The translations under genes and the position numbers were made by a program. The notes under the pieces are model-generated. The model was not told where the DNA came from. It saw nothing but the letters and a program-made list of their open reading frames with translations, and did no database searches. DNA of 64,000 nucleotides, from NCBI RefSeq assembly GCF_040958095.1, contig NC_091193.1:20162722-20226721 (forward strand), given 5' to 3'. Shown piece by piece: positions 12,273 to 39,096 of this stretch (position 1 is its first letter; each line of letters opens with the position of its first letter). Source of the DNA: Procambarus clarkii (taxonomy: Eukaryota; Arthropoda; Malacostraca; Decapoda; Cambaridae).

Positions 12273-12442
12273 ATTATCATTGCTGATGTCAGTACCCCTT
12301 TTCCCTTTATACATTATTATAGTGCACCGCATCGGTGATTATCTTCAATTAGCTCACTGTCTGTCTTAGGGGATACTTAGTGGGTCAGACCCAATGTGTA
12401 AACTCGTTAGTAACCTTAGTTCATAGTTTATTTAATTTATTA

Positions 12443-12620
12443 TACACCCCATGCCCATCCTGCGAGTGATAATACACCCCATACCCATCCTGCAAAGTGG
12501 TAGTGCACCCCATACCCATCCTGCGAGTGGTAGTAGACTCCATACCCTTTCCTGCTAGTGGTATTGGACCCCATATCCATCCTGTGAGTGGACCCCATAC
12601 CCATCATATGAGTGGTAACG
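12443..12620 (+). repeat. Tandem repeat, about 31-bp unit, 6 copies
   Basis: Unit approximately caccccatacccatcctgcg followed by agtggtagtg. Single or partial copies of the unit are scattered at 2648-2680 (minus), 24625-24670, 44586-44630 and, in altered form, 27970-28095. Confidence 0.8.
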
Positions 12621-17853: not shown

Positions 17854-18845
17854 TGTTACAATTGATATGAGTGGGGCTTCTATGGGGTACTGGTACTATT
17901 AAGGGGTATAGGTAGTTAGAAGACAGGAGTATCATATATGGGAGAGCTAAAAGGCCCGGCCCCCAAAATAAACTATCCACAGTAGTAATAACTTGCTACA
18001 AGACCAAATATGTTCGTCTAAGGGTTGATCACTGCGCTCCCACCTTGGAAGAAGAGATACTCTGTAATTCATGTACTTATTTATTAACCCGTTAACAACC
18101 CCCCATATACACTCACACCAATAACAATAATAATAATAACTTTACCACACTATCTTACGTTAAAAGCCTTGGTCCACGTAGGCAGGATACAAGGTTTACA
18201 CTAATAACAAGCTAGGGTAAAGTACTACTGGATAAGCACTGAAGCTGGATGCAGCTTAGGGTAGTGAAACCACGTGGGACCCTAATACAAAACACAACAC
18301 TTAGGGGTACCCAAACACTGGCAAAATACTATCCCCAGGTCTCACCAATCGTTACTACCAGAGTAGGCACACTCACTAATGCCCTGTACTTAGCTTAAGG
18401 ATACAGGAACTTCAGGTAAGGGAAATAAGTAAGAGGAGAAGGAAGGAGAGTAGGGATACAGCCACAGAGTAGGTCTTAACCTCACGCCACCAGCCAAGAG
18501 AAGACCGAGCTCCTCGCGACCACCTGGCCTCCCTCATGTCGTGGTGCCGGAAGGAGCCTAATTGATCGTGCAGCTAAGCACATTAAAGATCTTCCCCTAT
18601 GCAACGTATTGTTACTTTATGAATGATTAGAAAGTATTAGTAAGCAAAGTTGGTGCCTATGTTATAATTTAATAATCAACCCCCAGCTCAGTCTTTAAAT
18701 GCTCTTTGAGAAACAATAATAGTCTTACGTCTGGCAGGGAAGATACAAACAATTTCCATTCGAAATGCGCCAACTGTACTACTTAGGAAGTTTAATAGCT
18801 CAATTTTGACCTCTGGTTTCCACTGGAGAACCCAGGGTCGTAACA
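17854..18845 (-). repeat. Left (3') long terminal repeat of the gypsy element
   Basis: Its outer edge is set by the tgctg target duplication and the TGTTAC terminus; its inner edge by the purine-rich tract just inside. The 365-bp block 18481-18845 is identical by eye to 23946-24310. Confidence 0.75.
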
Positions 18846-18859
18846 CTCCTCCCCCCTTC
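18846..18859 (-). other. Polypurine tract of the gypsy element
   Basis: On the minus strand this reads GAAGGGGGGAGGAG, directly before the TGTTACGAC start of the 3' repeat. That is the expected place and composition of the plus-strand primer of an LTR element. Confidence 0.8.
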
Positions 18860-19139
18860 AGAGAAAAAAAAAATGTGACCACTAGAATAGTAGTCATATT
18901 TTTTTTTGTAAGAGTATACAGAGAACAAAAAGAAAAACATGACAAAAACAAAAAATCAATCAAAAGCAATTTCTCTGCAAAAAAAAAATACAAAGGAGTT
19001 CTCTGAAAGAAAAAACAAAAATAAAAGAACAGGGAAGTAAATAAATTGGACACGGAATATTTAATGTCACAGGAGAACCTAAAAAAAAATAACTAAAGCA
19101 TGACAGTTGGTAAATGGCTTTCTGTGGCTCAGATGAATG

Positions 19140-22100
19140 TTATTCAGGCAACCGGGACAGAGCGTCGGCTATTACGTTGAGTCTGCCCGGTAGGTGGGTA
19201 ATGGAAAGATTGAAGTCCTGTAGGTACAACGCCCACCTGAGGATGCGTTTATTCTTACCCTTCATCTGAGTCAGGAAAACTAGTGGGTTATGGTCCGTGT
19301 ACACTTCCACTATATTACCTGTGAGGTAAACTTCGAACTTTTTACATGTTAACACTAGCGCCAACGCCTCTTTTTCTACCACTGAATAATTGCGTTGCGC
19401 CTTGTCGAATTTCACAGAGTAATAATATACTGGGTGTTCCACCTGATCATCCCCAGTTTGCAACAACACTGCACCAGCACCCGAGTCAGATGCGTCAACA
19501 TGAATTTTAAACGGTCGGTCGAACCTAGGACTAGCAAGCACTGGGGCGGAAGCTAAGATCAATTTCAAATTTTTAAATGCCTCTGCACAGTCTGATGACC
19601 ACTTAAATTTAACGGCTTTCCGCAACAAGTCTGTGAGAGGAGTGGCAACACTGGAAAAGTTCTGACAAAAACGTCGATAGTACGCACACATACCGATAAA
19701 TCTTTGAACGTCCTTTTTAGACTTTAGTACTGGATACTCCAGAATGGCATTGATTTTATCTTGCCGAGGTAACACTTTTCCTTGGCCCACTTCATAACCG
19801 AGGTACGTCACTGTGCCTTGGCCAAAATGACACTTTTTAGCATTTAAGGTAAGATTTGCCCTTTTCAAGATGGCAAACAACTGGCGTAACCTAGCTATGT
19901 GGTCAGCCCAATTACTGTCAAACAGCACGATATCATCTAAATACGCCCGACAATTTGGCACCTTAGCGAGTAGAGAGTTCATGAGTCTCTGGAACGTGGC
20001 AGGGGCATTACGCAAGCCGAACGGTAACACTTGATACTCAAAAACACCCTCGGGTGTCACGAACGCGGTGAGCTGTTTAGCACGTTCAGTGAGTGGGATT
20101 TGATAATACCCCCTCGAGAGGTCGAATTTCGAAACGTACTTGGCATTTCCCAACTCGTCGATGCAGTCCTCGAGGAGGGGCAGCGGATAGGCATCCACAA
20201 TGGTCACCTTGTTGAGCTGCCGATAGTCGGTGCATAATCGCCAGGAGCCGTCTGGTTTGGGGACCAAAAGGCAGGGCGAGCACCAAGAGCCCTGGCTCGG
20301 CCGGATGAGGCCGTGCTGGAGCAAGAAGTCGACCTCCTTCCGTACGATGGCCTTCTTTTCTGGACTCATCCGATAGGGTTGAAGGCGAATGGGAGTGTAG
20401 TCCGTCAATTCGACATCATGGCAAATGGCATCAGTCTGGGTCGGGACATCCCCGAACAGACTGGAGAATTCAGCAACCAACGACTGCACCTCTTCACGTT
20501 GGGCCATCTGCAAATGGGACAGTTCCTCCACAGCATTCACAGAACTAGAATTATTGAAAATGAGATTAGTTGGGTCCCCAGAACAATCATCCCCTCTCTC
20601 ACTGGAAATGGAAACATTGGTTAGTGCAATGGGCCTGGGGCCCTGGAACTTCTTCAGTCGATTTACATGTATGAGCATTACCTGGTTACGTTTGTCAGAG
20701 TGCCTCACTTTGTACGTGAGGTCCCCAGTCTTTTCTGTCACAATGTAGGGGCCTTCGTACTTGTGGGACATAGTGTTCCCTAGTCGAGGCTTTAATACCA
20801 GGACAGGGTCGCCAGGCTGAAATACCCGTAACTTAGATTTAGCATCGTTACGTTCTTTCATCTTTTCTTGGGCCTTGCCAAGATACTTTAATGCAGCCGC
20901 CTTGCAGTCCTTGAGTCTCTGGTGGTGTTGCGCAAAGAAAGCCGAACCTTCGGATAACGTTACGTTCCCTAACAGATTCTCCTGTAACATTTGCAAGGGT
21001 CCACGAACTTTATGGCCAAAGACTAACTCAAAAGGAGAACAGCCCAGTGAACTTTGTAATCCCTCTCTAGCCGCAAACAAAACATACGGTAAATTCTCAT
21101 CCCAGAAGGTGTGGGAACTCTCGCACGATGTCTTCAACATCTGCTTCAGAGTTAGATGGAAACGTTCAATTACCCCCTGACTCTGTGGATGGTATGGGCT
21201 GGAAACCTTATGAGTTATTCCATGTTCCTTACAAAATTGCTCGAAAACATCAGACTTAAAATTAGTACCATTGTCAGTTTGCACGACCCGAGGCAGTCCA
21301 AAAGTGGAAAAAAATTGCAACATACGAGCAACAACAGTTTTTGCTCGGATGTTCCTTACAGCAAAAGCCTCTGGGTAACGAGTAGTGATACACATCATCG
21401 TGATTAGGTAAATATTACCAGACTTAGTTCTAGGTAATGGTCCAACACAGTCCATTACCACATGAGAAAATGGTTCCTCCGGCACGACAATAGGCCTTAG
21501 AGGAGCTTTAGGTGGAGTCTGGTTTGGTTTCCCAACCAGTTGACAAACAATACACGCATTACAAAATTTTGCCACATCGCTTTTCAGCTTGGGCCAGAAA
21601 AAATACTTTAAAATTTTGTGATACGTAATATTAATACCTTGATGTCCCCCCATAGAATCATCATGAGCAGCTGCCAAAACCCTTTCTCTATAGCAGGTCG
21701 GCAACATAACCTGGTGGACTACCTCCCACTCATTTGACAAGGGAGCACTCTGTGGTCTCCATTTTCTCATCAAAATCCGATCATTGTAGTAGTACCCAGT
21801 TGCTGCGTCTACAATTTCCTCCATAGAGACGGCTGTTTCATGACAATCTGCAAGAGTGGGGTCAGCTTTCTGTAACTCACTCAAGGAGGCATCTAGGCCT
21901 TGGTCAGATGCCATTGGCCGAGGCTCAACAGTGTTCTCCACCTCCCCACTACTCTCGGTAGATGGCGGTGGCAGGCTCTCCACAATGTCCTCGGCCACGT
22001 CATCGAGTCGGGCCATAAATGTGTCCGCGAGGTCCACTTGGTTTTCACCACTCGGAAAGCTCCTCGTGACCTCGGGATTTACCACCTTGGCAAGCACAGG

Positions 22101-23840
22101 GCTGCCCTTACATTTAAGTCCCATAGACCTGGTCACCGCGCACGCAGGGTACACAACATTATCCTCTGCGGCGGGTGGATCCAGGCAAACCTTAGGGGTA
22201 GGCAACATAATAGGTAGTCTGGAGTCCCCTACCTTATCCCCTGCTAAATCATTACCAACTATTACATCAACATTAGGGAAAGGTAGGTATGAAGTGACTC
22301 CGACTGTACAAACACCCTTGTGGAAATCAGATTCCAGGGTAACCTTATGGAGGGGTACTGCCCGAGTATCACTAGTGACACCCTCGACCAGTACCACCTC
22401 TCCAGTGTCGAGAGTGTTGGCACCTTGCAACGCACTCTCTAAAATTAAAGTCTGGATGGCACCGGTGTCTCGGAAGATCACCACGTCCTTCCAGGAAGAA
22501 CCCTCAGACAAAAGTAGTCTCCCTTTCGATAAGAATGGGGTAAGCAAGTCCAACCACTGTGGGTTGGAGGTCTTACTCCCTAACCCTTCCGAAGGCCTCA
22601 AGCCCTGTGTCACAACTAGAGCATTGGGTCTTTTTTCTGGGTACAGTTGCCAACAACGGCTAATATTGTGGTTTGAACGATTACAGTGACCACAAAAACG
22701 TCGGGGAGAAGAGACATTACTAACAGAATTACCCTTCGGTTCACCTTTAGGTGCCGTTGGGCTAGACACTTTAACAGGGTTAGTTATGTCTGAAACAGAA
22801 GGTGCATTAGGTAAAGGGTTAGAATGAGCTGGTCTGGACTGGCTGTTCGTATAAGGTTTGCTACTCGGTGGGGTATAATTATTTTTATTGGGCCTTTTGC
22901 CCGCCAATTGGTAGTTTTCTGCCAACTTGGCCAAATCCCCTATTTTAGAATTTAACTCTATCCTTCCTCTAATATACTGGGAAACATTCTCTGGCATAAC
23001 ATCTATAAAATGCTCCATTAAAATTAAGTTCCTGAGAGCCTCGTATGTTTCGGCTTTCGCCGAGCGAATCCATCTATCAAATAATCGAATTTGATCATTC
23101 ACAAATTCAGTGAGCGGTTGGTTGTGAGTAGGCCTAAGGTTACGATAAACTTGGCGGTGAGCTTCAGGAGTAATTTCATATGCCCGCAAAATACATTCCC
23201 TGACTTTATCATATTCGAAACACTCGTCGTCAGGCATGTTTATAAAAATATCTTGTGCTTTACCCCTAAGTCTTCCCTGTAGGATTTTCACCCACTCTTC
23301 CTTTGGCCAGTTCATGGACGTGGCCACTCTCTGAAAATGGTTGAAAAACCTTTCAGGGTCAGACTCGGAAAATTCAGGCAAATTATGCTTTTTCTCATAA
23401 TGCCTGGGGTTTGAATCCCCGGCAGGTGGAATTCCAGTGGCATTCGCTCTAATTTTAGCCTCCTCGGTTTTGAGTCTTTGCTCCTCTAATTTTATTTTTG
23501 CTAACTCTAAAGCTAATTCACTTTCCCTATGAGTTGCACTTTCTGCTTGGCTAGGCTGGCATAAAGGTGTATCACTTGCCAATAGTTGTTCATCAATACA
23601 ATGTTGTAATATTTCATTCACCAAAGTCCACTTTTTATCTGCAACATTTAATTCTAGGCCAAATTCCTGGCCTAACAATACTAAATTAGACTTTTTAAGT
23701 TTCTTTATCTCTACCACTGAAGGCTCCCTTGCCAGTTTCTGCATTTCAGAAGACATCACTAATAATTTTAGCTCCCAGCCAAAGAAAAAATTAAAAAATA
23801 AAAATTGGAAAAAAACAAAAATTTGCACGGCCCCTAACAC
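19140..23840 (-). CDS. Gag-Pol polyprotein of the gypsy element (integrase before reverse transcriptase)
   Basis: A single frame of 1566 residues; a likely start is the Met at residue 29 (MSSEMQK). Parts in order: Gag about 29-400 with one CCHC zinc knuckle (383-396); aspartic protease with DTG near 458-460; integrase about 715-1070 with an H-H-C-C zinc region (C763, C766) and D797, D856, E892 in the usual DD35E contexts; reverse transcriptase about 1115-1390 with YLDDI at 1300-1304; RNase H about 1440-1566 with VDAS and TDHNPL. A GPY/F-like module (YEGPYIV) follows the integrase. Gag and Pol share one frame, so no frameshift would be needed. Family assignment rests on the gypsy-type reverse transcriptase plus the domain order. 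Confidence 0.92.
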   Translation of the reverse strand: MLGAVQIFVFFQFLFFNFFFGWELKLLVMSSEMQKLAREPSVVEIKKLKKSNLVLLGQEFGLELNVADKKWTLVNEILQHCIDEQLLASDTPLCQPSQAESATHRESELALELAKIKLEEQRLKTEEAKIRANATGIPPAGDSNPRHYEKKHNLPEFSESDPERFFNHFQRVATSMNWPKEEWVKILQGRLRGKAQDIFINMPDDECFEYDKVRECILRAYEITPEAHRQVYRNLRPTHNQPLTEFVNDQIRLFDRWIRSAKAETYEALRNLILMEHFIDVMPENVSQYIRGRIELNSKIGDLAKLAENYQLAGKRPNKNNYTPPSSKPYTNSQSRPAHSNPLPNAPSVSDITNPVKVSSPTAPKGEPKGNSVSNVSSPRRFCGHCNRSNHNISRCWQLYPEKRPNALVVTQGLRPSEGLGSKTSNPQWLDLLTPFLSKGRLLLSEGSSWKDVVIFRDTGAIQTLILESALQGANTLDTGEVVLVEGVTSDTRAVPLHKVTLESDFHKGVCTVGVTSYLPFPNVDVIVGNDLAGDKVGDSRLPIMLPTPKVCLDPPAAEDNVVYPACAVTRSMGLKCKGSPVLAKVVNPEVTRSFPSGENQVDLADTFMARLDDVAEDIVESLPPPSTESSGEVENTVEPRPMASDQGLDASLSELQKADPTLADCHETAVSMEEIVDAATGYYYNDRILMRKWRPQSAPLSNEWEVVHQVMLPTCYRERVLAAAHDDSMGGHQGINITYHKILKYFFWPKLKSDVAKFCNACIVCQLVGKPNQTPPKAPLRPIVVPEEPFSHVVMDCVGPLPRTKSGNIYLITMMCITTRYPEAFAVRNIRAKTVVARMLQFFSTFGLPRVVQTDNGTNFKSDVFEQFCKEHGITHKVSSPYHPQSQGVIERFHLTLKQMLKTSCESSHTFWDENLPYVLFAAREGLQSSLGCSPFELVFGHKVRGPLQMLQENLLGNVTLSEGSAFFAQHHQRLKDCKAAALKYLGKAQEKMKERNDAKSKLRVFQPGDPVLVLKPRLGNTMSHKYEGPYIVTEKTGDLTYKVRHSDKRNQVMLIHVNRLKKFQGPRPIALTNVSISSERGDDCSGDPTNLIFNNSSSVNAVEELSHLQMAQREEVQSLVAEFSSLFGDVPTQTDAICHDVELTDYTPIRLQPYRMSPEKKAIVRKEVDFLLQHGLIRPSQGSWCSPCLLVPKPDGSWRLCTDYRQLNKVTIVDAYPLPLLEDCIDELGNAKYVSKFDLSRGYYQIPLTERAKQLTAFVTPEGVFEYQVLPFGLRNAPATFQRLMNSLLAKVPNCRAYLDDIVLFDSNWADHIARLRQLFAILKRANLTLNAKKCHFGQGTVTYLGYEVGQGKVLPRQDKINAILEYPVLKSKKDVQRFIGMCAYYRRFCQNFSSVATPLTDLLRKAVKFKWSSDCAEAFKNLKLILASAPVLASPRFDRPFKIHVDASDSGAGAVLLQTGDDQVEHPVYYYSVKFDKAQRNYSVVEKEALALVLTCKKFEVYLTGNIVEVYTDHNPLVFLTQMKGKNKRILRWALYLQDFNLSITHLPGRLNVIADALSRLPE

Positions 23841-23945
23841 AAGGCCACACTAACCTTAATCGTGAAGGGATCCAGCTGGGTGTCCAGTCAGTGCAAGAAT
23901 GTCCTTTGCTAGATGAGCTGGACCCTAGGCTAGCACACAACCGTT

Positions 23946-24310
23946 CTCACGCCACCAGCCAAGAGAAGACCGAGCTCCTCGCGACCACCTGGCCTCCCTC
24001 ATGTCGTGGTGCCGGAAGGAGCCTAATTGATCGTGCAGCTAAGCACATTAAAGATCTTCCCCTATGCAACGTATTGTTACTTTATGAATGATTAGAAAGT
24101 ATTAGTAAGCAAAGTTGGTGCCTATGTTATAATTTAATAATCAACCCCCAGCTCAGTCTTTAAATGCTCTTTGAGAAACAATAATAGTCTTACGTCTGGC
24201 AGGGAAGATACAAACAATTTCCATTCGAAATGCGCCAACTGTACTACTTAGGAAGTTTAATAGCTCAATTTTGACCTCTGGTTTCCACTGGAGAACCCAG
24301 GGTCGTAACA
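23946..24310 (-). repeat. Right (5') terminal repeat block of the gypsy element
   Basis: 365 bp identical by eye to 18481-18845. It begins (minus strand) TGTTACGACCC and is followed on the plus strand by the tgctg target duplication. Its inner edge and the primer-binding site were not resolved. Confidence 0.85.
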
Positions 24311-25939: not shown

Positions 25940-28900
25940 ATGGAGGGGAGGGAAAGACGCTCTTCCTTAGTGTCGCAAGCGTCGAACGACTGTACTGGGC
26001 CACCCAGCAGTTTAACAAGCGAGCAACCCACCAGTGTGGCGAGTGAACGACACACTAGTATGACGAGTGGGTTGCACCCTAGTATGGCAAGTGGATTGCA
26101 CACTAGTGTGGCGAGTGAACGACCCAGGGGGATTTCGGTCATCTCAGCCCACCGGACGAGGCGATCCAGGGCTCTGTCTGTCCTCTCCTCCTTCACCAAC
26201 CGGAGTCACAAGTCTTCCACTTATGGTAAATACTCAGGTTATATGTTCAACAAGAGAAAAATCCGTGGTATAATATTGATGGCGGTAGATGCATCTGAAG
26301 AGATATTTCATATATGTAATACTGATTGTAACGTTTGGTGTGCATAGAGATTGTGGAGATGCCCGGAGGGGCGGTGATGCTGACTGTGGACGACGGTGAG
26401 AGCGACGGGTCGTCTGGAGTAGGATCAAAGGACAGTATGTTTGGCGCCAGTACGATAGGAGGGGTCACCTCCGCCCCAGACACCTTACACCTCGACAAAA
26501 TAATCAAGAAGGAGATAGTAAGAGACAGCAATTATCTGATTTTCTTAAATAATTGCACACATTCTTTCTGTTGTTGACCAGACCACACACTAGAAGGTGA
26601 AGGGACGACGACGTTTCGGTCCGTCCTGGACCATTCCCAATCGACTTGAGAATGGTCCAGGACGGACCGAAACGTCGTCGTCCCTTCACCTTCTAGTGTG
26701 TGGTCTGGTCAACATACTTTAGCCACGTTATTGTGATTCTTTCTGTTCCTTTCCATCATATGCTTTTTATTTCACAGACAAAACAGGTTAGGCCACCTGT
26801 TGACTAGTGACGGGTCAGGATACACAAAGTATTTACGTGTTCACTTATTAGATATATATACCTCTTGTCTCGATTATCGTGGCATAATCGGTATATACCA
26901 AAAATGTTTACGATCCACGAAGCGCTATGAGATCGTTCTCATAACTTGCTCAATAAATACAGACTAAGACGTCATAATGGAGATAAGAGAAAAGGATGTA
27001 GTAAGTGAACTCACAAATGCGTTGTGAATTGTGGCCTTTCCACCGACTTAATCACAGTTAATGTATTGAATTCTAGGCCCCCTAAACAGTAACACTCGCC
27101 AGCATGCGCGCAGAAGGCTTGGTCTGACGCTAAAATACGAGGGGAAAAGAATAAAACTAAATTATAGTGACATGAGCAAAGTAGTGTAACATGTCAGACA
27201 AACAATACATGTTACTACCTCAGGACAACACCGAAGCATAAATCTTACTAGACAATGAACGCAGTGTTTTCTAGCAAGATATGCCAATATTGTGTTGGTT
27301 CTGTAGCCTAATCTTTCAGTGTAATAATGGAATCATCTTACAAATATTAAACACACAAATGTGTGATATTACTGGCCCTAACCTTACAATTCAGCAGATC
27401 TACGTACTTGCTACAAATGATCTTAATATTTGTCAAGACGTTCTATGTATACGCACCAAAAGTCCTCATTACCTTTGAGTGGTGATAACACGTGGTGGTG
27501 TGTGCAGGCACACCACAGCCCGGCCGTGGGCAGGGAGAGTGTGGTGGAGGACGAGCCGGGGATCCCGACCGTCGACCCCGGCAAGAACGTGGACGAGGAG
27601 GAACCACTGCTAGCCTTCGGTCCTACCAACCTCCTGCAGCACCTCTACCTCGCTCTGGCGTCTCCAGCGCTCTTCAGGCTCCCTTCCCTCGCCTACAAGT
27701 GGAGCAGCGAGAAAGGATGTAAGTTGGAACTTTGCCTTTGGATGTGAACGGAATCAGTGAGCACATAATAACTATAGTCAACATGCTGTAGAAATGTCAG
27801 TAGGCAGCAGTAACTGTGTCAAGGATTACTGGTGAGGATAAGACGCGTCAAATTGTGTTTTATGAAAGTTTTGAAAAATAACTGGCCAAGTTTGTTGCCT
27901 CTTCTCTGGTTTTGTTTACATTAGTGAATTCCTATTTTGTGCTAAATTTAAATTTAAAATTTAAATTTATTTATCAAACCCCGCATAACCATCCTGGGAG
28001 CGGTGTTAGAGACCTATCCAGTGGAAGGTGCACGCCCACACACCCATCCAGTGGATGGTGCACGCCCACAAACCCATCCAGTGGGCGGTGTGGAAGAAGT
28101 ACAACCTCTGTATAGCCTCATACTCAATACTCGCATTCGTTAAGCAAATTTATAGCGCTTAAAAGATTGATTCAGCAGCAACAGCTGGGAAAGTGTCTTT
28201 ACATTATACAATACAGCAAATAATGAGTTCACTAGCTAATAAAGTTACACAAGTAACGAATTTTTCAGGTCAGCGTGAGCTGTTTTGCAAACTGACTAAG
28301 ATTTTGGTTAATATCCAATGTTAAATATTTATCAAATGATAATATATATATCGCATACCAGGTATAAATTATTGCCAAAAATATAATAACTGACCGAAAT
28401 CATAGCAAATTATTCTGACTTCAAATACCGTAAATTAGGTAAAATAACTGTAGATGTGAGGTTATTATGACTGCTCACTCTCAACCCTTCTCCAGCGGGC
28501 TTCTTCACCGCGTACATTGTGGTGATGGTGGGGATGGCGCTGCCCCTCAGCGTCCTGGAGCAGACCCTGGCTCAGTTCTCCTCCCTCGGGGTCATCACCA
28601 TCTTCAGGTGTCTCCCTCTCTTCGCAGGTCAGTGCCTCTCTGCTCACAGGTCTGTGCCTCTCTCCTCACAGGTCTGTGTCTCTCTGCTCACAGGTCTGTG
28701 TCTCTCTTCTCACAGGTCTGTGTCTCTCCTCACTCTGTATGTCTCTGTGTGTGTGTATTTACTATTTGTATTACTGTTTGTGTCTGCAGAATCGAGCTAT
28801 TCGCTCTTGGACCCCGCCTTTCTAACCAATCTATTTGTTTTCTCTATTATATCTACCACATATATTTCTCTCTAACACACACACCCATCCCCAGGAAGCA

Positions 28901-31900
28901 GCCTGTAGCAGCTGTCTGCTCCCAGGCATCTATTTACTGCTACGTAAACAGGGGCATCAGGGTGAAAGAAACTCTGCCCATTTGTTTCCGCTTCCGCCGG
29001 GAATCGAACCCGGGCCATTAGGACTACGATATCCAAGCGCTGTCCACTCAGCCACGAGGCCCCCCTGTGTTTGTGTGTGTGTGTGTGTGGGCGTGCAGGT
29101 GTGTGTGTCACTATAGGCGTACCTGCCACAACAGGTGTGGGCGTGGGAATGGTCGCGACGTGCGTGATACTGATGGGGTACAGCAGCACGGTGTTGACCT
29201 GGGCAATGCGGTACACATTCGACTGCCTCCACGAGGACATACCGTGGGCCGCCTGTCCCAACAACAGCAGCATGTGTTGGCCCGGGCCAGGCCCCGTGCC
29301 CAGTGCCGGTAACTCCTCCTATCTCTACACCCCGAACGATTTCTACTTCCTGTAAGTACTGATGTTCTACTCTTGGCTCTCTGGTAATAAGACAGGTGTA
29401 TACACGCACACACGTACGTACGTACGTCATGAGAGTCAATGGAGTTGGGTTCGATGTTTCAGGGCCTTTATTTATTTACTAGGACGGGTACCCGGCGGTG
29501 CCCGGGATAGTCTGTCTCTCCCACCACCCCCCAGTCCACTCCTCTTCTTTTCACGTGAGCCAACGGTTGTGGAGCTGCACCTTGGGAACGGTCGGTAGTT
29601 CGACCTTGGGTGGACCTCGATATAAGCTTAACGTATATATATACAGGCTCTCTGTTTCAGCACCCTTCTCAAATTACCCCTCCCTTATTGTCACGGCCTC
29701 AAGACTTCCTCTAACAAAAGGTATAAGATTATCTTCCACGACCCTTTGAATCTGTGATTATTCCAAGGCTTTACAGTACAATGTTGGGAGTGGCTTATTA
29801 TACGAGTGCGTGCAAGTCTGACTCGCCCTTTTACCTGTGGCAGGAACAGTGTGCTGGGGTTAGTGAGCACCGAGGCAGGGCAGGAGGAGGGCCAGTGGGT
29901 CATCGCCTCACTGGTGATGATCCAGGGGCTGCTGTGGGTGTCCCTGCTCTCCTTAGTGTCGCTGGGGGATGCGTGGCGAGGGGGCACCGTCTCCAGGGTG
30001 TGGTCTCTGGTCACCTTAGCTACCCTCATCACACTCATGGTGACGGGGCTGGAGATAACGCAGAGTGACGAGGGCCTTCGCTTCATCTTCAGCTGGAGCG
30101 CTGAGGAACTCCATCTTCCGGATATGTGGCTCGACGCTCTAGGCCAGGTGTGGGTCCTTCTCCTCGTCTCTTGCCGTCTGTTCATATAACATTCCTCGAC
30201 ATTTTTCTCGTTTTCGAAGTAAATACAATCACAATAAAATGACATATATGTGTCACTGATAATATTTATCGAATCTAAAGTCAGAATTCATATAAAAAAC
30301 TAGTTTTTCAATATTATATCTTTGGCAATTATGTTCAAGTGCAATTATCTATGATCACAGATAAATATTTACGCGTCCGTTACCATGATGTTTGTTTTGT
30401 ATTTGGGATAAAGACCAATATTCCTGGGAGCATGAGGTAAAGCCTACTAAGCCTTTGACTGTTCCACAGATAATGTGGTCTTTGGGACCCAGCCTGGGCC
30501 TCCTCATCTCCAGGACCAGCTATAAACGCTTCAGAGACAATGTGAGTTCCTACTGACATCTTTGTTTTCTTTACATCTTTCTCTTTTTAAACCAAACGTG
30601 GGCTCAGTAGGAATGGCACTGATATTGCTATATTTCAACAACACCAGTGAGGTTGCGTTCCATCAGCAACACTTTCTTACACCTGCTGGGAATGAGTCTT
30701 TTGGGAGTGACTATGGAGGATGTTAAGGACATTGTGACTGACAAACTCCAGCTGTTGTTGTTGTTTTAGATTCAGCTACTCAGAACAAGTTCCAAGTAGC
30801 ACGGGCTATGGTGAGCCCGTAACTTACCTGGCACAGGAGCGGGGCAGGTAGCACAGGGGCTATGGTGAGCCCGTAACTTACCTGGCACAGGAGCGGGGCA
30901 GGTAGCACACGGGCTATGGTGAGCCCGTAGCGGACTTACCTGGCACAGGAGTGGGGCTGTGCACTGCTGAAAAAAAACTCCAGCGCTTGGTAAGCCTTAT
31001 CTGTCGTGCATCGTATAGCAGGTGTTGACCTCCACCTTGTTGTGCTTGTGGGCTTTGCGAGCTCCAGCTCTTTGGTCCCTCCTCTCAAACTTCAGTACGA
31101 AGAAAGGATTGGAACGGATTTCCTTAAGTACTTTCGTATTTAATAATACATCTTCAGAAGGATCCGCACCGACATCTAGGTATTTTTGTACCTTATGTCT
31201 GGACTCCTCTTCCCAGAATCTCGCTTCATGACCTTGCATTTGTTCGAGTTATAACCTCAAGTAGCCATTTGTTGAAGCAGTCTTTCAGTTTGGCCAGGCC
31301 ATCCTACAGTTTATTGGTCTTTGATCGTTTTAATCTGCCTCATAATGTGTGTATATATCAGGTAACATTTTATGTACACCACACACAAGAGAGATCTTAA
31401 TGATGTGGGATGCCACTGGCAGCATCTCATCACTGAAATCTCTCCTTTCACTGATAGGCTCTCAATGAATGTCTCATTGTGCATCTTATAGTCACCAACG
31501 TACAAAAACAAAATACTATCAAAAGTAGCAGCTTAAAAAAAATCCCATTTTCTATGGGTCAGTAAGTTAGGTGGGTTGCTTGAGTTGGTAAGACTTCTGG
31601 TTGGGTTAGCATCTTGTATTTTAGATACGTTTATGGCAAATCGAAAGAACGGGTTGCTTAGATACTCCTGTATTTACCTGAGGGCCACTTTCTTTCTACT
31701 GGTGTCGACGAGGACAGGAAGCCAGCGGCGTGTCAGAGATCACCCCATTTGTCCTGATCACGTTCCTGCCACTCCTGCAGCAACCCGTTCTCGCAAATTT
31801 AATAAGTCAATATTGACTTATTAGTTGCGTGCATAGGTGACATACTAAACATAATAGTTTCCCTTGAAAAGCTTCATAGAAAACACCGACCTTACCTAAC

Positions 31901-34900
31901 GTACTTAGTATGTTAAAATAAGCATCTTATAGCTTCGTAATTACAATTGTTACTTAACCTATTATAGGTATAGGTTAGGTAATAATTGTAATTACGAAGC
32001 ATAAGATGCTTATCTTAACATACTAAGTAGGTTAGGTAAGGTCGGTGTTTTCTATGAAGCTTTTCAAGGGAAACTATTATGTTAAGTATGTCACCTATGC
32101 ACATATTTAATAAGTCAATATTGACTTATTAAATTTGCGAGAACGGGTTGCCTGCAGAAGGGTAATGTTTCTGACAGCCTTCAACTATCACCCCGATGTA
32201 CTTTCTACCAAGTGCTTGACTCCAAGTGTGAGATGTATAAATAGGATTTTAATGCCGAAGTCTTCTATTCTTAACTCTGTAATTGCAACTATCTTAACTC
32301 TGAGATGCTAATATCTTAACTTTGGAACGTTATGTTATTCTCCATCTTCACAACGCGATAATGCTGATATTACCCGGCTATAAAAGATAACTCTGAGTAC
32401 TTGGGTGTTCCCAGCGCCCTCGTGCTCGGCGGATACAAAAAAAATTCAATACACATCATCATTACAAAATTCAATACACATCGTCACATCAACAATGGGC
32501 TCGAGATCGACCACAAGTACAGTTTCTAAATCAAGCAACTGACATATGTGGAGAGCTAGTGTCACCATTGATATGTTTGTCCTGCACACCGCCCCCCATC
32601 CAGTGGGCAGCGGTGGATAGGCTACAGTCCAGGCTTTGAGCCAACAGAATCCACAAGCCCAGACAACTAACACATGTACATATATATATCCCCTGCAGAT
32701 ACGAAAGGACGTGTACACAGCGATGGCGGCCAACTTGCTGGTGGCTGTAATTACTTGTCTGGCGGTGTTCCCGTATCAGGGCAAGTTTAACCTCAACGAC
32801 AGCATCGAGAAGAGTAAGTAACTTTCTCAGGACATTATCTAGCGATCTGTATATATTGTAAGGCAGAATGTCCGTCTGTTCCAAGTTGGACGCCTAACCT
32901 AACCTAACCTAACCTAACCTAACCTAACCTAACCTAACTTTCACACATGAAGCATGTGGGGTATGGGAGTGTGGGGTATGGAAGTGTGGGGTATGGGAGT
33001 GTGGGGTATGGGAGTGTGGGGTATGGGAGTGTGGGGTATGGGAGTGTGGGGTATGGGAGTGTGGGGTATGGAAGTGTGGGGTATGGGAGCGTGGGGTATG
33101 GGAGTGTGGGGTATGGGAGTGTGGGGTATGGGAGTGTGGGGTATGGGAATGTGGGGTATGGAAGTGTGGGGTATGGGAGTGTGGGGTATGGGAGTGTGGG
33201 GTATGGGAGTGTGAGGTATGGGAGTGTGGGGTATGGGAGTGTGAGGTATGGGAGTGTGGGGTATGGGAGTGTGGGGTATGGGAGTATGGGGTGTGGGAGT
33301 GTCATACCGGGTAGGCGCAGGTATCCCATTTTAAGAAATATCAGCGTCAAACAGTTCTCCACCCCGTGCGATTTTCTTGAAGCCAAGTCTGAAATATTGG
33401 TTGTGTTGTCCGTAGACTTCTTTAATAGTTTCACCACTTATTTATTTATATACCAGAAGGTACATTGGGGGTTAAGAGAGAACATAGAAATGAAGTTGAT
33501 TTTATATTCTTGTAAAGCCACTAGCACGCATAGCGTTTCGATCAAGTCCTTAAACTAACAGATAATTTTTAACTAACAGATAACTTTGTTACATAATTGT
33601 TCTGAGAGAGAGAAGGGGGGATATATGGGGCCAGATAAGGGAGAAGTGGGAGACTGGGAGAGATGGTGGAGATAGGAGGAGAGGGTAGATGTTGGGGGAG
33701 AAAGTTGGTGAGGGTGGGAGAGAGGGGAGATTGAAAGAAGAAGGAAAGGGAGGGAAATTGGGGAAGGGCGGGGAGAGACCCGGGAGCGGCCGGGTATCTG
33801 CCGGTTGCGCCACAAATACAATACTGTAGTAAAGTTACCAACAAATCCTTGTATTCACTTGTCTGCTAGTTAAAAAATACACAGTTTCCATGCTTAGCCA
33901 TATTTAATTACTTATATCATGCCGAAGCACTAGGACTGGACGGTAGAACGACGGTCTCGCTTCATGTAGATCGGCGTTCAATCCCCCGACCGTCCAAGTG
34001 GTTGGGCACCATTCCTTTCCCCCGTCCCATTCCAAATCCTTATCCTGACCCTTTCCCAGTGCTATATAGTCGTAAAGGCTTAGCGTTTTTATTGATAATT
34101 ACCTTCCCCCCATTGATGCATTAGTTGTTTCTGTATTTCATAGCCAACCTGTTCTTCAGTTTGTATGCATATATTTCTTTGCTATTAAATACAATTATGA
34201 TTTTTAACTCTTTATTTTTTAATTTGATCTATATGCAGCCATTGATTTTTGCATGTTTGATTTTCTAAGCAAATGCCAATAATAAATAACCCAAAATAAA
34301 TTTAAACCGGATACGTGACCGAAACTAATAGTAAAATTTGAATACACGAACATAAATCGAGTTTATAAAATTTAACGAAAGATAACGACAATAATGTTCG
34401 AGTAGGTTTATTGAAACAATAAAATACATCTCAAAGGGATAGACTAGCTTAGGCTATTTCTACCCCTGAATAATGTTATTTCTTCACGGGGGAGACATCT
34501 CCCGTCACGCAGGGTGCAGTCGCACCTCCACAGATCTCCAGTATCACCTCTTGATACTGGTAATGGCTCAAAAAGGGCCACCACTTACGAGCTATTCATG
34601 CCCGTGCCACCTTTTGGGTGGCCTAATCTTCATCAATCATCTTCAATCGTTATTTCTTCCCACAGCACCCGGGTACTTTTTCGTGATATCGTCGTTCGCG
34701 GTGAGTCACCTGCAGGTGCCTCAGTTGGGAGGCATCCTGCTGTACCTGGGGATGTGCAAGGCCCTCCTCGACCACACCCAGATGCTGGTGTCCACTCTCG
34801 TGGTGAGTGTGTCTGACCTCCTGCCCGTCAAGTTCAGAAGCGGCACCCGACTCTTCGCTTGCAAGTTCCTGTGCTGTTGCTTGGGGTTCGTCTTCAGTCT

Positions 34901-37900
34901 TCCCTTCATTACTAATGTGAGATGTGGCTTTGATGTGGTGTTATGTGAGTACGCCCACATCTTGGTTACTGTAAAGGAATTGCTCAATTGCTAGATGTGT
35001 TTACATCAATTCTATACACACACACTTGCAGGTAGTAATTTTAATTAAATAAACAGAAGGAATGATAAAAAATTAAGTATTATACATGACATATTAGCAA
35101 ATCAGTCATTAAATTAATCATTGATATATATAATAGCAAGACATAGGTTGACATTTAGGAGGTAAGGTAGGTTACATGGAGTTATCAAGTAGTACTTGGT
35201 TTCTCTTTCTTAAACTGGTTGAGAGAGGGACAGTCTTTGACGTGATTGGGAAGGACCTTCATTCCACATTTTGGGACCCTTGATTTGCAGAGCATTTCTA
35301 CCTTGGTTAAGTAGCACTCTTGGAATACCAAATAGATATTTGTTTCTAGTGTGGTGCCCATGGGTCCTGTTACAGCCCTCTAGGAAGCACATATACCACA
35401 CAAACATACTCACCCTTCCTTTCAGTGCTCTCTAACTAGCCATGGGTACACTCCTCAGGAGGGGATCTTCCTGATGGAGGCCGTCGACGCCTACGTGCCG
35501 TGGATCCCCGCCCTGGTGCTGGGGACGCTGGAGGTGCTAGGCTTCGTCTACCTGTACGGCGCCAAGAACATCAGCCAACATTTTACACTGATGATGAGGA
35601 GCAAGCCAGATTACTTCTACTTCGTCTGGAAGTTCTTCCTCTTGCCTACATTCTTGGTCAGTTCTCAGGCTCTTTTGAACCCTACATCTCACATACAGTT
35701 GTGCTGACAAAAATACTGTAGACGGATACAGAGGCACTCAATGTGTCAGCCACAAATAATAGTAACTATATAGTTACTATATATTGTAGTTAATAGTAAC
35801 TATTTAGTAACTATATAGTTACTATGGATGAAAGTACAAAATATGGACTGTTGCGGCTAAAAAAGTAAACGTTTTTTGTTATTAATTGCGTAGAGGGCCC
35901 AAGAAAGATGGAACTTAAAACCAAATCTAGCTTTTTCTAGGCCCAGTATAATACATATATGTACTAAATTATGCCAAAGATTGCTTCTTTTACGCCTAGG
36001 ATTGATTGTGTGGGCCTAGGATAGGTTAGTTTAGGTTAATTATGTCACACCTTTTGGTATGCAAATATTGATTGCATGTATGTGTATTTATTATTTGTGC
36101 TTGCAGGATCGAGCTGTTAGCTCTTGAACCCCGCCTGTCTAATTGTCTAATGTTGATTGTCCTGTTGACAACCTGTTGGTTGTCTAATGTACTGATTGCC
36201 GACCAATTTCTCCTCTATCATATCTGCTCTTTCACACACACATCCCCAGATTACAGCCCGTAGCAGCTGTCTAACTCCCAGATTCCTATTTACTACTAGG
36301 TGAACTTGAAATAGTTCACTTCAGAGGCATCAGGTGAAAGAAACTCTGCTCATGTGCTTCTGCCTTGACTGGGAATTGAACCCTCAATAGCCTCATGTTC
36401 TGACATCAAAACTACATCCCTCAGACCCACGGGATAATGATTGGAAGCTCCTATAAATAATCACACATCCGTACGATTTTTGTTTCTGGCCAAGAGACTC
36501 ACTTTCCTTCTACGGTGGTGGCGCAGGGGCTGCTGGTGTGGGTGAGCGTGCAGGGGGTGAGGGGCCCGGTGACCTGGGGCAAGATGCAGCTGGAGGTGTC
36601 TAGGGAGCAGATGTACCACTGGCTGGGCTTAAGCCTGGCTATGCTGCCTCTGGCCCTCGTCGTCCTCAGCACGCTAGTCCTCCTCCTACACCCTCGGCTG
36701 GTAAGTGGCGCCCTTATCCCTTCCTCACAACTTTCACCACAATTGTCAATGTGTAAAATTTAAATATTGTATCCGCATGAAATGTATCCACATGAATTGC
36801 TAATGTATGGAAGTATTGTAATGTAATCCAAAAATATTTCTATACAACTCGTTTCTTAAGCCAGTATTACATGAAAATTACATTACAAATGTGATATCAT
36901 CAACCACTTACATTCCTTTCCTCCGTCCTCACCCAAATCCTTATCATTATATCACCTCCAAGTGCTATATTGGCGTAATGGCTTAACGTTCTCTCTGGAT
37001 AATTACCATACCTAACAACGAAAAAACCGATGCAGTTGGTGTCTTTAGAGATAGTCGATGTATGCAAGCCGAGAAATATCGACCATGTTGGTTCTGGATG
37101 CTTCTAAGCCCGAACGCATGCGGACTCTGAACAGAAAAGATCGTTCATGTTTTAATGTTTTCCTTTTGATATGCACAGTCGGTGAAATCACTCCTAACGC
37201 CCCGGGAGACGTGGGGCCCGGCGCTTGCGCAGCACCAGGCCCTTTACACTCCAGGGATACTCAGGGCCAAGAAAAGGGCCCCCTACCTCATCGTCCAGGT
37301 ATGTGGTAGCCATTTTTTATCGTCCGGGTATGTGGTCCACCTTACCTCATCGTCCAGATATGTGGTCCCCTCTACCTCATCATCTAGGTACGTGGAAGCC
37401 CCTATCTCATCGTTCAAGTACGTGGACGTCTACCTCATCATAAAGGTTCGTGATCACCCTTACCTCATCGTCCAGGTACGTGGCCCCCGATCAGCAACCC
37501 CCCCCCTCCCCCCCGGTCAGTGAGGCTAGCGAAGGGCACAAGTAGGTTGATGTTGGAACTATCAGCTTTTACAATGGAGTGCCTATTGCCGTCCTCTGCC
37601 TTCTCCAGTGAGATATTCTTTGTAGTTTGGTATTATATATTTGTACCCATTTGTGATACGAATACCATATATAGCAGCTATTTGGAAAAGTATTTGCAAT
37701 AGATTTTTGTAATTTATATATTTTAACAGCATTAGGGGCGGTCACTAGGTGTAAACAGTTATTTTATATAATCAAAATAAATAAATCATACAATTCACTT
37801 CTATATTAGTATTTTATTTCGTTAATCCATGTTTAAATACCGTTTTGTGCTTACTATTTCTTTTTGGTCATGTTTAAATGTAGATGGATGATTCAGAAGA

Positions 37901-39096
37901 GGCGAGTGGGAAAGATTGGCTTCCTTATGGATATTTCTGGGTGCCACCGAAGTCTTCTGGGTCGTACATGTTTGTCTCCTCTGAAGACCCAACTACCAAG
38001 TCTAAGATTGTCAAGTATCTTAAGGTAAGGTGTAAAGGAGGAAATGTATATGTTTATCTCTCAGAATGTTCGGTAATATGTTTATTGTTTGTGATGTGTG
38101 TGTCTATGTATGTATTAACACGATGTACTGAACGGGGTGAGAATAGCTTGAGCTACCTCATCCCTTTGTGTGTATTTTACCTCAATAAACTTATTTCAAT
38201 TTCAATTTCAATAAGGTAAGGAACTAGAGATTTGAAATTGTTTCAGTCGTACATGACCTAACTTTCTGTGAAGCTGAACGCAATACATAACTTTGTATTT
38301 TAAATAAGAATACAGCTAACTTAACACGTAGACTACAAGTGATAGGAAGGAACAAATCCATCCTCCAAAATGACAGTATACATAGCGATTATGGGAACTT
38401 TGTACAAATGATAACATACATTCGAGGGAACCTTGTGGGCACCCACATATATTTATGTATATATTGTCTTCTACCACTCCCCTTTTTTTAAGCTTTATTT
38501 TACAAAAAAAGGATTGCTTATAAATCTGAAACACAGAGAAAAATATATTACTAGCTGTACAGTAGTTCTTTGGAGATCCCGCATGTTAAATTTCCAGTCA
38601 TACCCAAACAAAAGATTTTGCCATAATGATTATTCGAAATTCATCCTTCGCTTGTTTTTAAAAATTATTAAAACAAAACAAATACTCATTAGCATACAAT
38701 TAAATATTCAGGATGGTAATGGCACCGTATATAGGATATCACATAATTTACAAATACAACTGCAAGCTCTTTGATACGATCATAAATGAATGTAAATATT
38801 GTTCCTACCTTCAGGCACAGAACAGATCTAACACAGTCTGTGGGTGGAGAGTGGAGAATTATAACGACGAGGACGCTCATGCGACTTCAGAGGGGAACCT
38901 CATCAGTAACGTTGACCGCAGCAGGCGCTACGGGGTCACCAGCCTCGCTGGTACTGACTTTGAACGCTCAAGAACCGCCTCCTTTACTTCCATCTCCGCC
39001 GGATTGGTCCTTCGGCCTAATAACGTGGCGGGAATAGAAGGAGAAATTCAGCCGGTGGGCAGCAACTCCCACGATAATCAAGCTTATGAAAAGTGA
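25940..39096 (+). CDS. SLC6-type transporter-like membrane protein, 14 exons, 852 residues
   Basis: Exons: 25940-26225, 26348-26517, 27508-27718, 28496-28627, 29135-29351, 29844-30147, 30470-30541, 32699-32813, 34666-34802, 35459-35656, 36527-36700, 37179-37298, 37884-38024, 38815-39096. All junctions are GT-AG and phases agree, giving 852 residues from the ATG at 25940. Residues 1-190 are hydrophilic and Ser/Thr-rich. The SLC6 core follows: TM1 193-216 (FRLP), TM2 with LEQTLAQFSSLG (243-254; family ELALGQFSSLG), an extracellular loop with NNSS sites and PW...C...C (303-314), TM6 QIMWSLGP (440-447), TM7 with N476, TM8 with D538, then an FVYLYG block. Residues about 690-852 form a polar tail. 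SLC6 proteins carry amino acids, amines or osmolytes with sodium and chloride across the plasma membrane. Here the TM1 GLGNVWRFP consensus is ASPALFRLP, so sodium coupling is doubtful. The long N-terminus and divergent core recall the Drosophila bedraggled group, but orthology is unproven. Confidence 0.87.
26518..27507 (+). other. Intron 2 of the SLC6-like gene
   Basis: Holds the perfect foldback repeat at 26573-26713. The rest is AT-rich with no further recognised element. Confidence 0.7.
26573..26713. repeat. Perfect foldback palindrome (64-bp arms)
   Basis: Arm 26573-26636 and arm 26650-26713 are exact reverse complements by eye, separated by 13 bp. The core is gacgacgacgtttcggtccg with tcctggaccattc at the inner end. 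Further copies: one arm at 4748-4850, an imperfect palindrome at 58592-58740, and an outer fragment at 1510-1585. The sequence beyond the right arm (cacgttattgtgattc) is shared with the other copies, so the mobile unit is larger than the palindrome. Class unknown. Confidence 0.9.
27965..28095 (+). repeat. Tandem repeat, about 31-bp unit, 3-4 copies (intron 3)
   Basis: Unit about acccatccagtggatggtgc followed by acgcccaca. It looks related to the caccccatacccatcctg family at 12443-12620. Confidence 0.75.
28608..28740 (+). repeat. 22-bp tandem array seeded by the exon 4 5' splice site
   Basis: The end of exon 4 plus its donor (cttcgcag|gtcagtgcct) is repeated into intron 4 with junctions at 28627, 28649, 28671, 28693 and 28715, exactly 22 nt apart. 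Each later unit reads ctcacag|gtctgtg, so each keeps an AG|GT junction. A further junction (ttcag|gtgtct) lies at 28607 within the exon. The exon frame stays open through the array to a stop near 28873. Confidence 0.85.
28786..29065 (-). mobile_element. tRNA-derived SINE with extension (intron 4)
   Basis: The minus strand shows a tRNA-like head with an A-box-like TGAGTGGACAGCGC, B box GGGTTCGATTCCC and CGGCGGAAGCGG, then a body with gtagcagtaaatagatgcct-type text. On the plus strand its left part begins gaatcgagctattcgctctt. A copy with the same overall order is at 36098-36425. A TG microsatellite adjoins it at about 29062-29105. Confidence 0.85.
29352..29843 (+). other. Intron 5 of the SLC6-like gene
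   Basis: Contains a short patch around 29480-29560 (cccggcggtgcccggga followed by tctctc-rich text) that resembles, in reverse, the GA-rich segment ending in a gagcggccgggtatctg patch at 33600-33820. Otherwise nothing recognised. Confidence 0.5.
30749..30965 (+). repeat. Dispersed repeat family C with three tandem units (intron 7)
   Basis: Begins ttgttgttgttttagattca. Three units follow of gggctatggtgagcccgtaa plus cttacctggcacaggagc, about 60-70 bp each. Confidence 0.8.
30995..31330 (-). mobile_element. LINE reverse-transcriptase remnant (intron 7)
   Basis: Minus-strand frames resemble the region after the catalytic box of a LINE: a KLKDCFNKWLLE-like stretch (about 31260-31310), then CKVMK remains, then a diverged frame at 31239-30997. 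Frames are broken. Confidence 0.5.
31655..31779 (-). mobile_element. LINE 3' tail fragment (intron 7)
   Basis: Plus-strand text tttacctgagggccactttct ... gaggacaggaagccagcggc is the complement of the C-terminal end of a LINE that recurs at 41985-42310 (minus), 45755-45880 (minus) and 46200-46490 (plus). Confidence 0.55.
31780..32151. mobile_element. Palindromic MITE-like element with 5-bp target duplication (intron 7)
   Basis: A 372-bp palindrome. Its two arms of about 185 bp match in inverted order with roughly ten differences, and the outer ends are gcaacccgttctcgc and gcgagaacgggttgc. ctgca duplications lie at 31775-31779 and 32152-32156. Inner arms carry an aataagtcaatattgactta palindrome. 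No coding capacity, so it would depend on a transposase elsewhere. A half copy is at 924-1120. Confidence 0.8.
32157..32698 (+). other. Distal part of intron 7
   Basis: AT-rich with a diverged unit of the ccatccagtgggcagcggt repeat near 32590-32615. No gene seen. Confidence 0.45.
32893..32937 (+). repeat. Interstitial telomere-type repeat (CCTAA)9
   Basis: Nine perfect copies of CCTAA, the complement of the arthropod telomere repeat TTAGG, in intron 8. It stops 19 bp before the 15-bp minisatellite. Confidence 0.95.
32956..33302 (+). repeat. 15-bp minisatellite, about 23 copies (intron 8)
   Basis: Unit gtggggtatgggagt, with occasional changes (ggaagt, gtgagg). The G-rich strand has runs of three and four guanines and could form G-quadruplexes. 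It generates artificial YGSVG and LPYPTLPYP frames. Confidence 0.97.
33440..33600 (-). repeat. Dispersed repeat family D copy
   Basis: Contains gccactagcacgcatagcgt and the flanking tttatatatac...gtacattggg text. Related copies: 48225-48400 and 45935-46080 (same orientation), 44995-45110 and 52260-52400 (opposite; gcccgaaacgctttgcgtaa). It probably is the 3' region of a non-LTR element. Confidence 0.65.
33600..33825 (+). repeat. GA-rich low-complexity stretch
   Basis: Purine-rich, irregular gagaggggag/gtgggaga text ending at gagcggccgggtatctgccg. It gives only artificial proline/serine frames on the minus strand. Confidence 0.75.
33930..34110 (+). mobile_element. tRNA-derived SINE (intron 8)
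   Basis: The tRNA-like head has gacggtagaacgacggtctc, ggcgttcaatccccc as B box and a matching gaccgtcc end. The body has ccatccaaatcc-type text and gtgctatatagtcgtaaagg. Body-only copies lie at 36905-37015 and 61045-61190. Confidence 0.8.
34111..34665 (+). other. Distal part of intron 8
   Basis: AT-rich. At 34395-34470 there is an inverted copy of the retrotransposon tail (minus strand: gcctaagctagtctatccc ... ttattgtttcaataaac). Nothing else recognised. Confidence 0.5.
35165..35430 (-). mobile_element. LINE tail with C-terminal coding remnant (intron 9)
   Basis: On the minus strand a frame reads NRTHGHHTRNKYLFGIPRV, then LNQGRNALQIKGPKMWNE and CPSL-like text, typical of the very C-terminal end of LINE polyproteins before the 3' UTR. 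Short and isolated, so a 5'-truncated insertion. Confidence 0.65.
35657..36097 (+). other. Proximal part of intron 10
   Basis: Contains a short AT-rich tandem around 35765-35830 (atagttactatatagttact-like) and a dispersed segment near 35930-36040 (tttctaggcccagtataata, gggcctaggataggttag) also echoed at 8690 and 15300. Confidence 0.5.
36098..36425 (-). mobile_element. SINE copy, diverged (intron 10)
   Basis: Same order of blocks as 28786-29065: gatcgagctgttagctcttg, ccgcctgtctaattg, then the complement of a tRNA-derived SINE body (gcagctgtctaactcccaga) with a diverged B box (gggaattgaaccct on the plus strand). Confidence 0.7.
36701..37178 (+). other. Intron 11
   Basis: AT-rich. It includes a SINE body remnant at 36905-37015 (cctttcctccgtcctcaccc, gtgctatattggcgtaatgg) of the family seen at 33930 and 61045. 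Confidence 0.55.
37280..37500 (+). repeat. About 30-bp tandem array seeded by the exon 12 5' splice site
   Basis: The end of exon 12 plus its donor (ctcatcgtccag|gtatgtgg) is repeated into intron 12, with aligned junctions at 37298, 37327, 37357, 37387, 37417, 37445 and 37475. Six of seven keep GT (GTATGTG, GTACGTG or GTTCGTG); one has AT. The exon frame is open through the whole array to a stop at 37521. Confidence 0.85.
37521..37883 (+). other. Distal part of intron 12
   Basis: AT-rich; nothing recognised. Confidence 0.4.
38036..38215 (+). mobile_element. Retrotransposon 3' tail (intron 13)
   Basis: gtaaaggaggaaatgtatat ... acctcaataaacttatttcaa, ending in TTTCAAT repeats. It is a near-identical inverted partner of 16833-17010. 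It starts within a dozen bases of the exon 13 donor. Confidence 0.75.
38216..38814 (+). other. Distal part of intron 13
   Basis: AT-rich; nothing recognised. Confidence 0.4.

Follow-up and report, generated by a model that had tools for sequence, protein, structure and literature searches.

The window, by which we mean the whole 64-kb stretch of crayfish DNA that was analysed, contains an SLC6-type gene with two tandem arrays that each begin across the end of a coding exon, at exons 4 and 12 (Table 1). Each of the gene's 13 introns has GT-AG ends. Pfam analysis of the predicted product detected an SNF domain (PF00209, E = 2.9e-51) at residues 207–689, which assigns it to the sodium:neurotransmitter symporter family (SLC6), and the closest relatives of solved structure are glycine and dopamine transporters. 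Exon 12, whose last residue is number 750, codes for a segment of the C-terminal tail that lies beyond the SNF match. Coding exon 1 carries a tandem repeat of its own, with 24-nt units at 26029–26117 that are read as in-frame repeats of the type SERHTSMTSGLHPSMASGLHTSVASERP. Further minisatellites at 12442–12591, 28012–28084, and 32955–33302 have units that, judged by eye, resemble one another (CCCATACCC / CCCATCC core, on either strand). Open frames at 9559–11253 (GYEFGYGVLDNDTG... GSYKIQLPDGRVQTVTYVA) read like a gene for what we take to be a cuticle-type protein. A minus-strand retrotransposon, presumably of the Ty3/gypsy type, lies at 18481–24310; it contains a single open frame of 1569 residues and is bounded by two 365-nt repeats that are 100% identical, which points to a recent insertion, approximately 1.6 kb upstream of exon 1.

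Table 1. Features of the SLC6-type gene in the window, and donor-anchored arrays at SLC6 paralogues elsewhere in the genome.
Feature	Location	Strand	Description
Host gene, SLC6-type	25940..39096	+	14 coding exons, 890 aa
Exon 4	28496..28627	+	3' end CTCTTCGCAG|gtcagtgc
First donor-anchored array	28615..28733	+	22-nt unit, exon 4 donor
Exon 12	37179..37298	+	3' end CTCATCGTCCAG|gtatgtgg
Donor-anchored minisatellite (exon 12 array)	37279..37488	+	TRF: period 30, 7.1 copies, 68% matches
Intron 12	37299..37883	+	585 nt, contains units 2–7
Open frame continuing exon 12	37299..37523	+	74 codons, TGA 37521–37523; relevant only under retention of intron 12
Donors 6 and 7 (after 37445, 37475)	37446..37483	+	offsets +147, +177, phase 0 with exon 13
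Exon 13 (coding, next after exon 12)	37884..38024	+	acceptor at 37884
L049	C59		donor-anchored array, 19 nt, 4.9 copies
L048	C59		donor-anchored array, 25 nt, 27.6 copies
L051			donor-anchored array, 26 nt, 75 copies
L037			donor-anchored array, 45 nt, 5.4 copies, plain in sequence
L033			donor-anchored array, TRF 53-nt double unit, 2.5 copies; initial copies identified by eye

A sequence-only reading of this region had claimed that the end of exon 12 recurs, together with its splice donor, about every 30 nt into the following intron, and this recurrence was borne out. The seven junctions are exact (37298, 37327, 37357, 37387, 37417, 37445, and 37475), and the GT is kept in six of the seven units, with AT in its place in the 37357 unit. 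Unit 1 consists of approximately 20 nt of exon end and approximately 10 nt of intron including the donor, and all seven units are approximately 30 nt long; their exact lengths vary from 28 to 30 nt, with the result that the reading frame changes between units. Allowing up to three mismatches, the 20-nt junction word occurs six times in the window including itself, every time inside the array, a number that was reached in 0 of 100 shuffles. Both exon 12 and the acceptor used by exon 13 fit the 14-exon GT-AG gene model. The other array claimed for the same gene, at the exon 4 donor, is likewise real and has the same build with 22-nt units: the donor lies at 28627 and is followed by copies at +22, +44, +66, and +88. 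Here the exonic copy is identical to the four intronic copies at 16–17 of 22 positions, and the intronic copies are identical among themselves at 20–21 of 22.

The frame of exon 12 had also been said to stay open through all units to a stop, and it does. Such an open frame is nevertheless unremarkable: all three frames of the 30-nt consensus unit are free of stops, and when the bases of the 222-nt stretch were shuffled, 542 of 5000 shuffled versions were open as well. The switching of frame by units of 28–30 nt speaks against a selected coding tail, and a tail under selection was dropped as an unneeded assumption, given that unit indels break the phase and that the frame is open by composition. 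We modelled the products of the array donors by splicing each of them to 37884 in a script. Donor 1 gave the 890-aa product and donors 2–5 gave products of 880, 890, 900, and 910 aa, all of them frame-shifted (donor 3 being the one without a GT), while donors 6 and 7 gave 939 and 949 aa with in-frame inserts of 49 and 59 residues, respectively. Retention of intron 12 was modelled to yield 824 aa with a repeat-coded tail. The earlier expectation of a shorter protein therefore holds for retention and does not hold in general for late donors, which either shift the frame (2–5) or lengthen the product (6 and 7).

To score donor strength, we derived a matrix from the 11 other donors of the host gene. 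The exon's own donor scored 8.26 in the exon 12 array, against at most 6.68 for the other units, and 8.75 against 5.94 in the exon 4 array; the top score belongs to the exon's own donor in both arrays of the window, which favors ordinary splicing. We accordingly consider it improbable that the array serves as a set of alternative donors, in which donors 6 and 7 would add residues, donors 2–5 would shift the frame, or retention would give the truncated form, in the manner of human IFI6. The GT in six of seven units and the in-phase offsets of +147 and +177 are what such use would call for, and downstream repeat units of IFI6 are reported as used in passages of PMC4526556. Set against this are the lower scores of all later donors, the breaking of phase by the unit lengths, the frameshift from every one of donors 2–5, and an open frame that is expected by chance often enough.

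Within the host gene, strong downstream copies of the junction were present at 2 of 13 donors and strong upstream copies at 0 of 13 acceptors. However, 5.7% of sampled gene positions reach the score of the weaker array, for a binomial P of about 0.17 (calculated by hand), and in-gene statistics were rejected as proof on the grounds that they are too weak. The claim that two such arrays in one gene exceed chance thus fails for the gene taken alone; as a pattern, it is backed by the SLC6 paralogues. It was because of this weak in-gene statistic that the search was extended to the paralogues of the whole genome, a 4.03-Gb assembly from which the window comes. A search of it with PF00209 returned 92 exon matches, 67 of which were taken and 63 of which lay inside the fetched stretches, and the resulting SLC6 sample comprises 20 stretches (181.5 kb) with 63 called donors. 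Donors and acceptors in the paralogues were called from the end of the Pfam match and an approximate splice-site matrix, and some of the calls are wrong; in L049, the called donor belongs to one of the later copies of the array. The sample is not fully independent, since the SLC6 paralogues are related and two loci, L044 and L045, are near-copies.

Arrays detected by TRF cover 14% of the SLC6 loci and straddle 3 of the 63 called donors vs. 0 of 62 acceptors. In all three of these, L049, L048, and L051, the first unit of the array starts at the exon end and includes a donor, and at 5 of the 63 donors copies of the donor can be seen in an array (Table 1). L048 and L049 belong to one run of SLC6 exon matches (G000 C59:21134286–21162069), which by coordinates is a second gene with two donor-anchored arrays. 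A third array in this run, with 15-nt units, starts 36 nt past another donor. Arrays at L035 (979–1393) and L050 (1543–1892) start 13 and 7 nt past the donor, respectively, with the exon end excluded, and donor-proximal starts therefore include more than boundary-spanning units.

One further junction, shared by L044 and L045 and lying outside the 63, reads LAKGVQSSGK|GTCAGTAT and is repeated in 41-nt units, with 13.0 copies in L044 vs. 8.0 in L045. This is a change of copy number in a donor-anchored array between two loci that are approximately 97% identical and represent either haplotigs or recent duplicates. Compared with the intronic units inspected, the exonic unit is missing 3 nt, the mark expected of a coding copy that is held while intronic copies turn over. 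Copy numbers of 15.7 vs. 11.7 (41 nt) and 7.5 vs. 4.5 (28 nt) were also recorded for L044 (G000 C7) vs. L045 (C5).

No donor array was seen at six further SLC6 loci (two of them near-copies of set members, and all outside the counts), and in a second family, the myosins, 0 of 20 donors had one. We also looked from arrays to exons, in six short flanks from places with the donor motif, one of which (L075) lay inside its array. In L072, a 23-nt array starts exactly at the end of an exon of the 7tm_1 family (rhodopsin-type GPCR; Pfam E = 7.5e-8, match to residue 90 of 91). The other four flanks yielded no recognisable exon; Pfam covered a single open stretch in L073, in L074, and in L077, and none in L076. 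That minisatellites elsewhere in this genome also start at exon ends, which the earlier reading proposed to test, is true of SLC6 paralogues and of one 7tm_1 gene, and not of the myosins sampled.

Around the 63 SLC6 donors, array starts within 60 nt numbered 13. Circular shifts gave an expectation of 3.8 (P = 0.0003), and random placement that avoided the called exons gave 2.3 (0 of 1500 simulations). The 60-nt distance was chosen with the histogram of starts already in view, which makes these P values somewhat too favorable. Array ends within 60 nt before acceptors were also in excess (6 vs. 2.2, P = 0.023), so part of the donor effect may consist of array edges meeting exon edges. Exon edges in general are somewhat enriched for array edges, donors more so.

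The bias toward donors was also seen with junction words, compared between 96 donors (63 SLC6, 13 from the window, and 20 myosin) and 75 acceptors. At a threshold of at least 14/20, the word was repeated downstream of 7/96 donors vs. upstream of 0/75 acceptors (Fisher P = 0.016), and stricter thresholds gave 6/96 donors at 15/20 (P = 0.029) and 5/96 at 16/20 (P = 0.053). With the window gene taken out, the figures were 5/83 donors vs. 0/62 acceptors at 14/20 (P = 0.058), 4/83 donors at 15/20 (P = 0.104), and 3/83 at 16/20 (P = 0.18). Among control words at 15/20, the donor word was found upstream in 2/76 cases and a word 60 nt inside the exon in 1/76, while interior intron words downstream of donors recurred in 11/76 to 15/96 (13–16%), compared with the 6/96 for donors. 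When TRF arrays alone were counted, first units straddled donors in 2 cases vs. 1.3 expected (P = 0.38). A simple count of donors inside arrays gave 3 vs. 7.7 by circular shift, a deficit of the kind that purging from exons would give. Such simple counts of junctions inside arrays were discarded as uninformative, in that interior intron words recur more and circular shifts expect more.

These figures bear on the simplest alternative, namely that arrays are dense in this genome and that some fall on donors by chance. The TRF coverage of the SLC6 loci, the unimpressive P value of the in-gene pair, the absence of arrays from the myosin donors, and the TRF-only straddles are all in keeping with it. 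The excess of array starts near donors over either expectation, the absence of repeated words at all 75 acceptors, and the motif-picked array at a GPCR exon end argue the other way, and we regard chance placement as an unlikely account of the pattern.

A more demanding question is whether donors give rise to arrays. Exon ends of the form AG|GT carried arrays in 6 of 45 cases, vs. 1 of 51 other ends (P = 0.039, from arrays listed by hand). A donor-like motif was present in 24 of 96 array units in sense (6.9 in shuffled units) and in 17 of 96 in antisense (7.7 in shuffled units). Genome-wide, triplets of CAGGTRAGT in close tandem numbered 16,221 vs. 3,443 for the reversed motif, figures that include several matches per array. 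Expressed as triple per single match, the donor motif had the highest value of four motifs, 12.9% vs. 9.0% for a permuted motif, 9.6% for the reverse of the latter, and 2.0% for the reversed donor, although its margin over two of them is modest; this second, permuted control motif weakens the genome-wide motif counts, which were rejected as proof of seeding. On contig C1, our own grouping of matches gave 13 distinct clusters for the donor motif and 5 for the permuted motif, and at least 6 clusters of the reversed motif among the matches listed, up to 59.1 Mb.

That minisatellites arise preferentially at the splice donors of this genome, through the donor motif or through DNA breaks coupled to splicing, and are not merely tolerated there, would be a stronger form of the reading that we prefer, and we entertain it tentatively, as something that may be so but is rather doubtful. 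The piling up of array starts at donors beyond uniform placement fits with it, as do the excess at AG|GT ends and the difference in triplets from the reversed motif. On the other side, most of the motif excess falls within the range of the control motifs, a single array contributes several matches to the count, and donor-like units are in excess in antisense as well. If donors did give rise to arrays in this way, introns would grow from exon ends, and a lasting reserve of spare donors would be available for intron sliding and new isoforms. Insertion of an introner or another dispersed element at the boundary is conceivable in that the units carry AG|GT, but very improbable: the 254-nt array region matched only itself in the 4.03-Gb genome (as searched with a tool that passes over simple repeats and highly frequent words), and the first unit is coding exon.

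We consider it highly probable that the exon 12 array is instead a boundary minisatellite of the type known in amphioxus as "mirages," tolerated in a gene that still uses the first donor. A tandem duplication of approximately 30 nt, by slippage or unequal exchange, would have crossed the boundary, taking in ~20 nt at the end of exon 12 and ~10 nt at the start of intron 12, and the duplicated segment would then have expanded downstream. The spliceosome probably keeps to exon 12's own donor, because this is the first in the array and the best matched; the mRNA would be unchanged, and the additional copies would be selectively neutral intron ballast, free to expand and decay. Protein coding would hold the exonic copy fixed, while intronic copies could drift or homogenise among themselves. 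Duplications across an acceptor would be expected to alter the mRNA more often and to be purged, so that such arrays would survive mainly at donors. Most likely, then, the arrays are a harmless by-product of repeat growth and not a route to new protein, and the consequence of the exon 12 array for the SLC6-type gene itself is probably nil. Boundary minisatellites have so far been described gene by gene in lancelets, and a single large genome with several of them, some of tens of copies and twice two per gene, would open a genome-wide count of whether splice sites breed repeats and feed intron growth and sliding.

In passages of PMC3087553, mirages are described as minisatellite-like duplications of intron-exon boundaries in the globin and Adh3 genes of amphioxus; many of the units carry AG/GT, their length is unstable, and splicing is reported to be undisturbed. 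Troponin C and PGBD5 are added as mirage genes in part of PMC3902484. As far as these excerpts describe them, the amphioxus cases (Adh3, BflGb6, BflGb9, troponin C, PGBD5) resemble the crayfish arrays in having short tandem units that span an exon-intron boundary, AG/GT in many but not all units, and occurrence in several genes (PMC3087553, PMC3902484). In the crayfish, units cross from exon into intron at both exon 4 and exon 12, the GT is kept in six of the seven exon 12 units, and arrays of this kind recur in SLC6 paralogues and the 7tm_1 gene. The variable copy number of the amphioxus cases may have a counterpart in the 13.0 vs. 8.0 copies of L044 and L045, loci other than the window gene. 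The amphioxus mirages, in the text available from these sources, occur at both 5' and 3' boundaries, whereas ours were found at donors only, with 0/75 acceptors in our sample, and amphioxus splicing was examined by RT-PCR, whereas the arrays described here are known from genomic sequence alone. In titles and abstract openings of the open-licence PMC literature we found no crustacean case of a boundary minisatellite.

In human IFI6 (6-16, G1P3), a minisatellite at an exon end supplies several donors (Turri 1995, cited in PMC4526556), two downstream units of which are reported as used in the portion of PMC4526556 consulted; the later donors of the exon 12 array, in contrast, are only predicted and score below donor 1. 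Intron gain or sliding by tandem duplication of proto-splice sites has also been described (PMC2891723), and the Rogers model and the near intron pairs of Drosophila, as outlined there and in PMC3087553, likewise involve tandem duplication of AG|GT segments. The exon 12 array differs in lying inside an existing intron, and it gives no sign of a new intron position. The exon 12 array matches closely the boundary minisatellites known from the amphioxus mirages, of which it is probably another instance.
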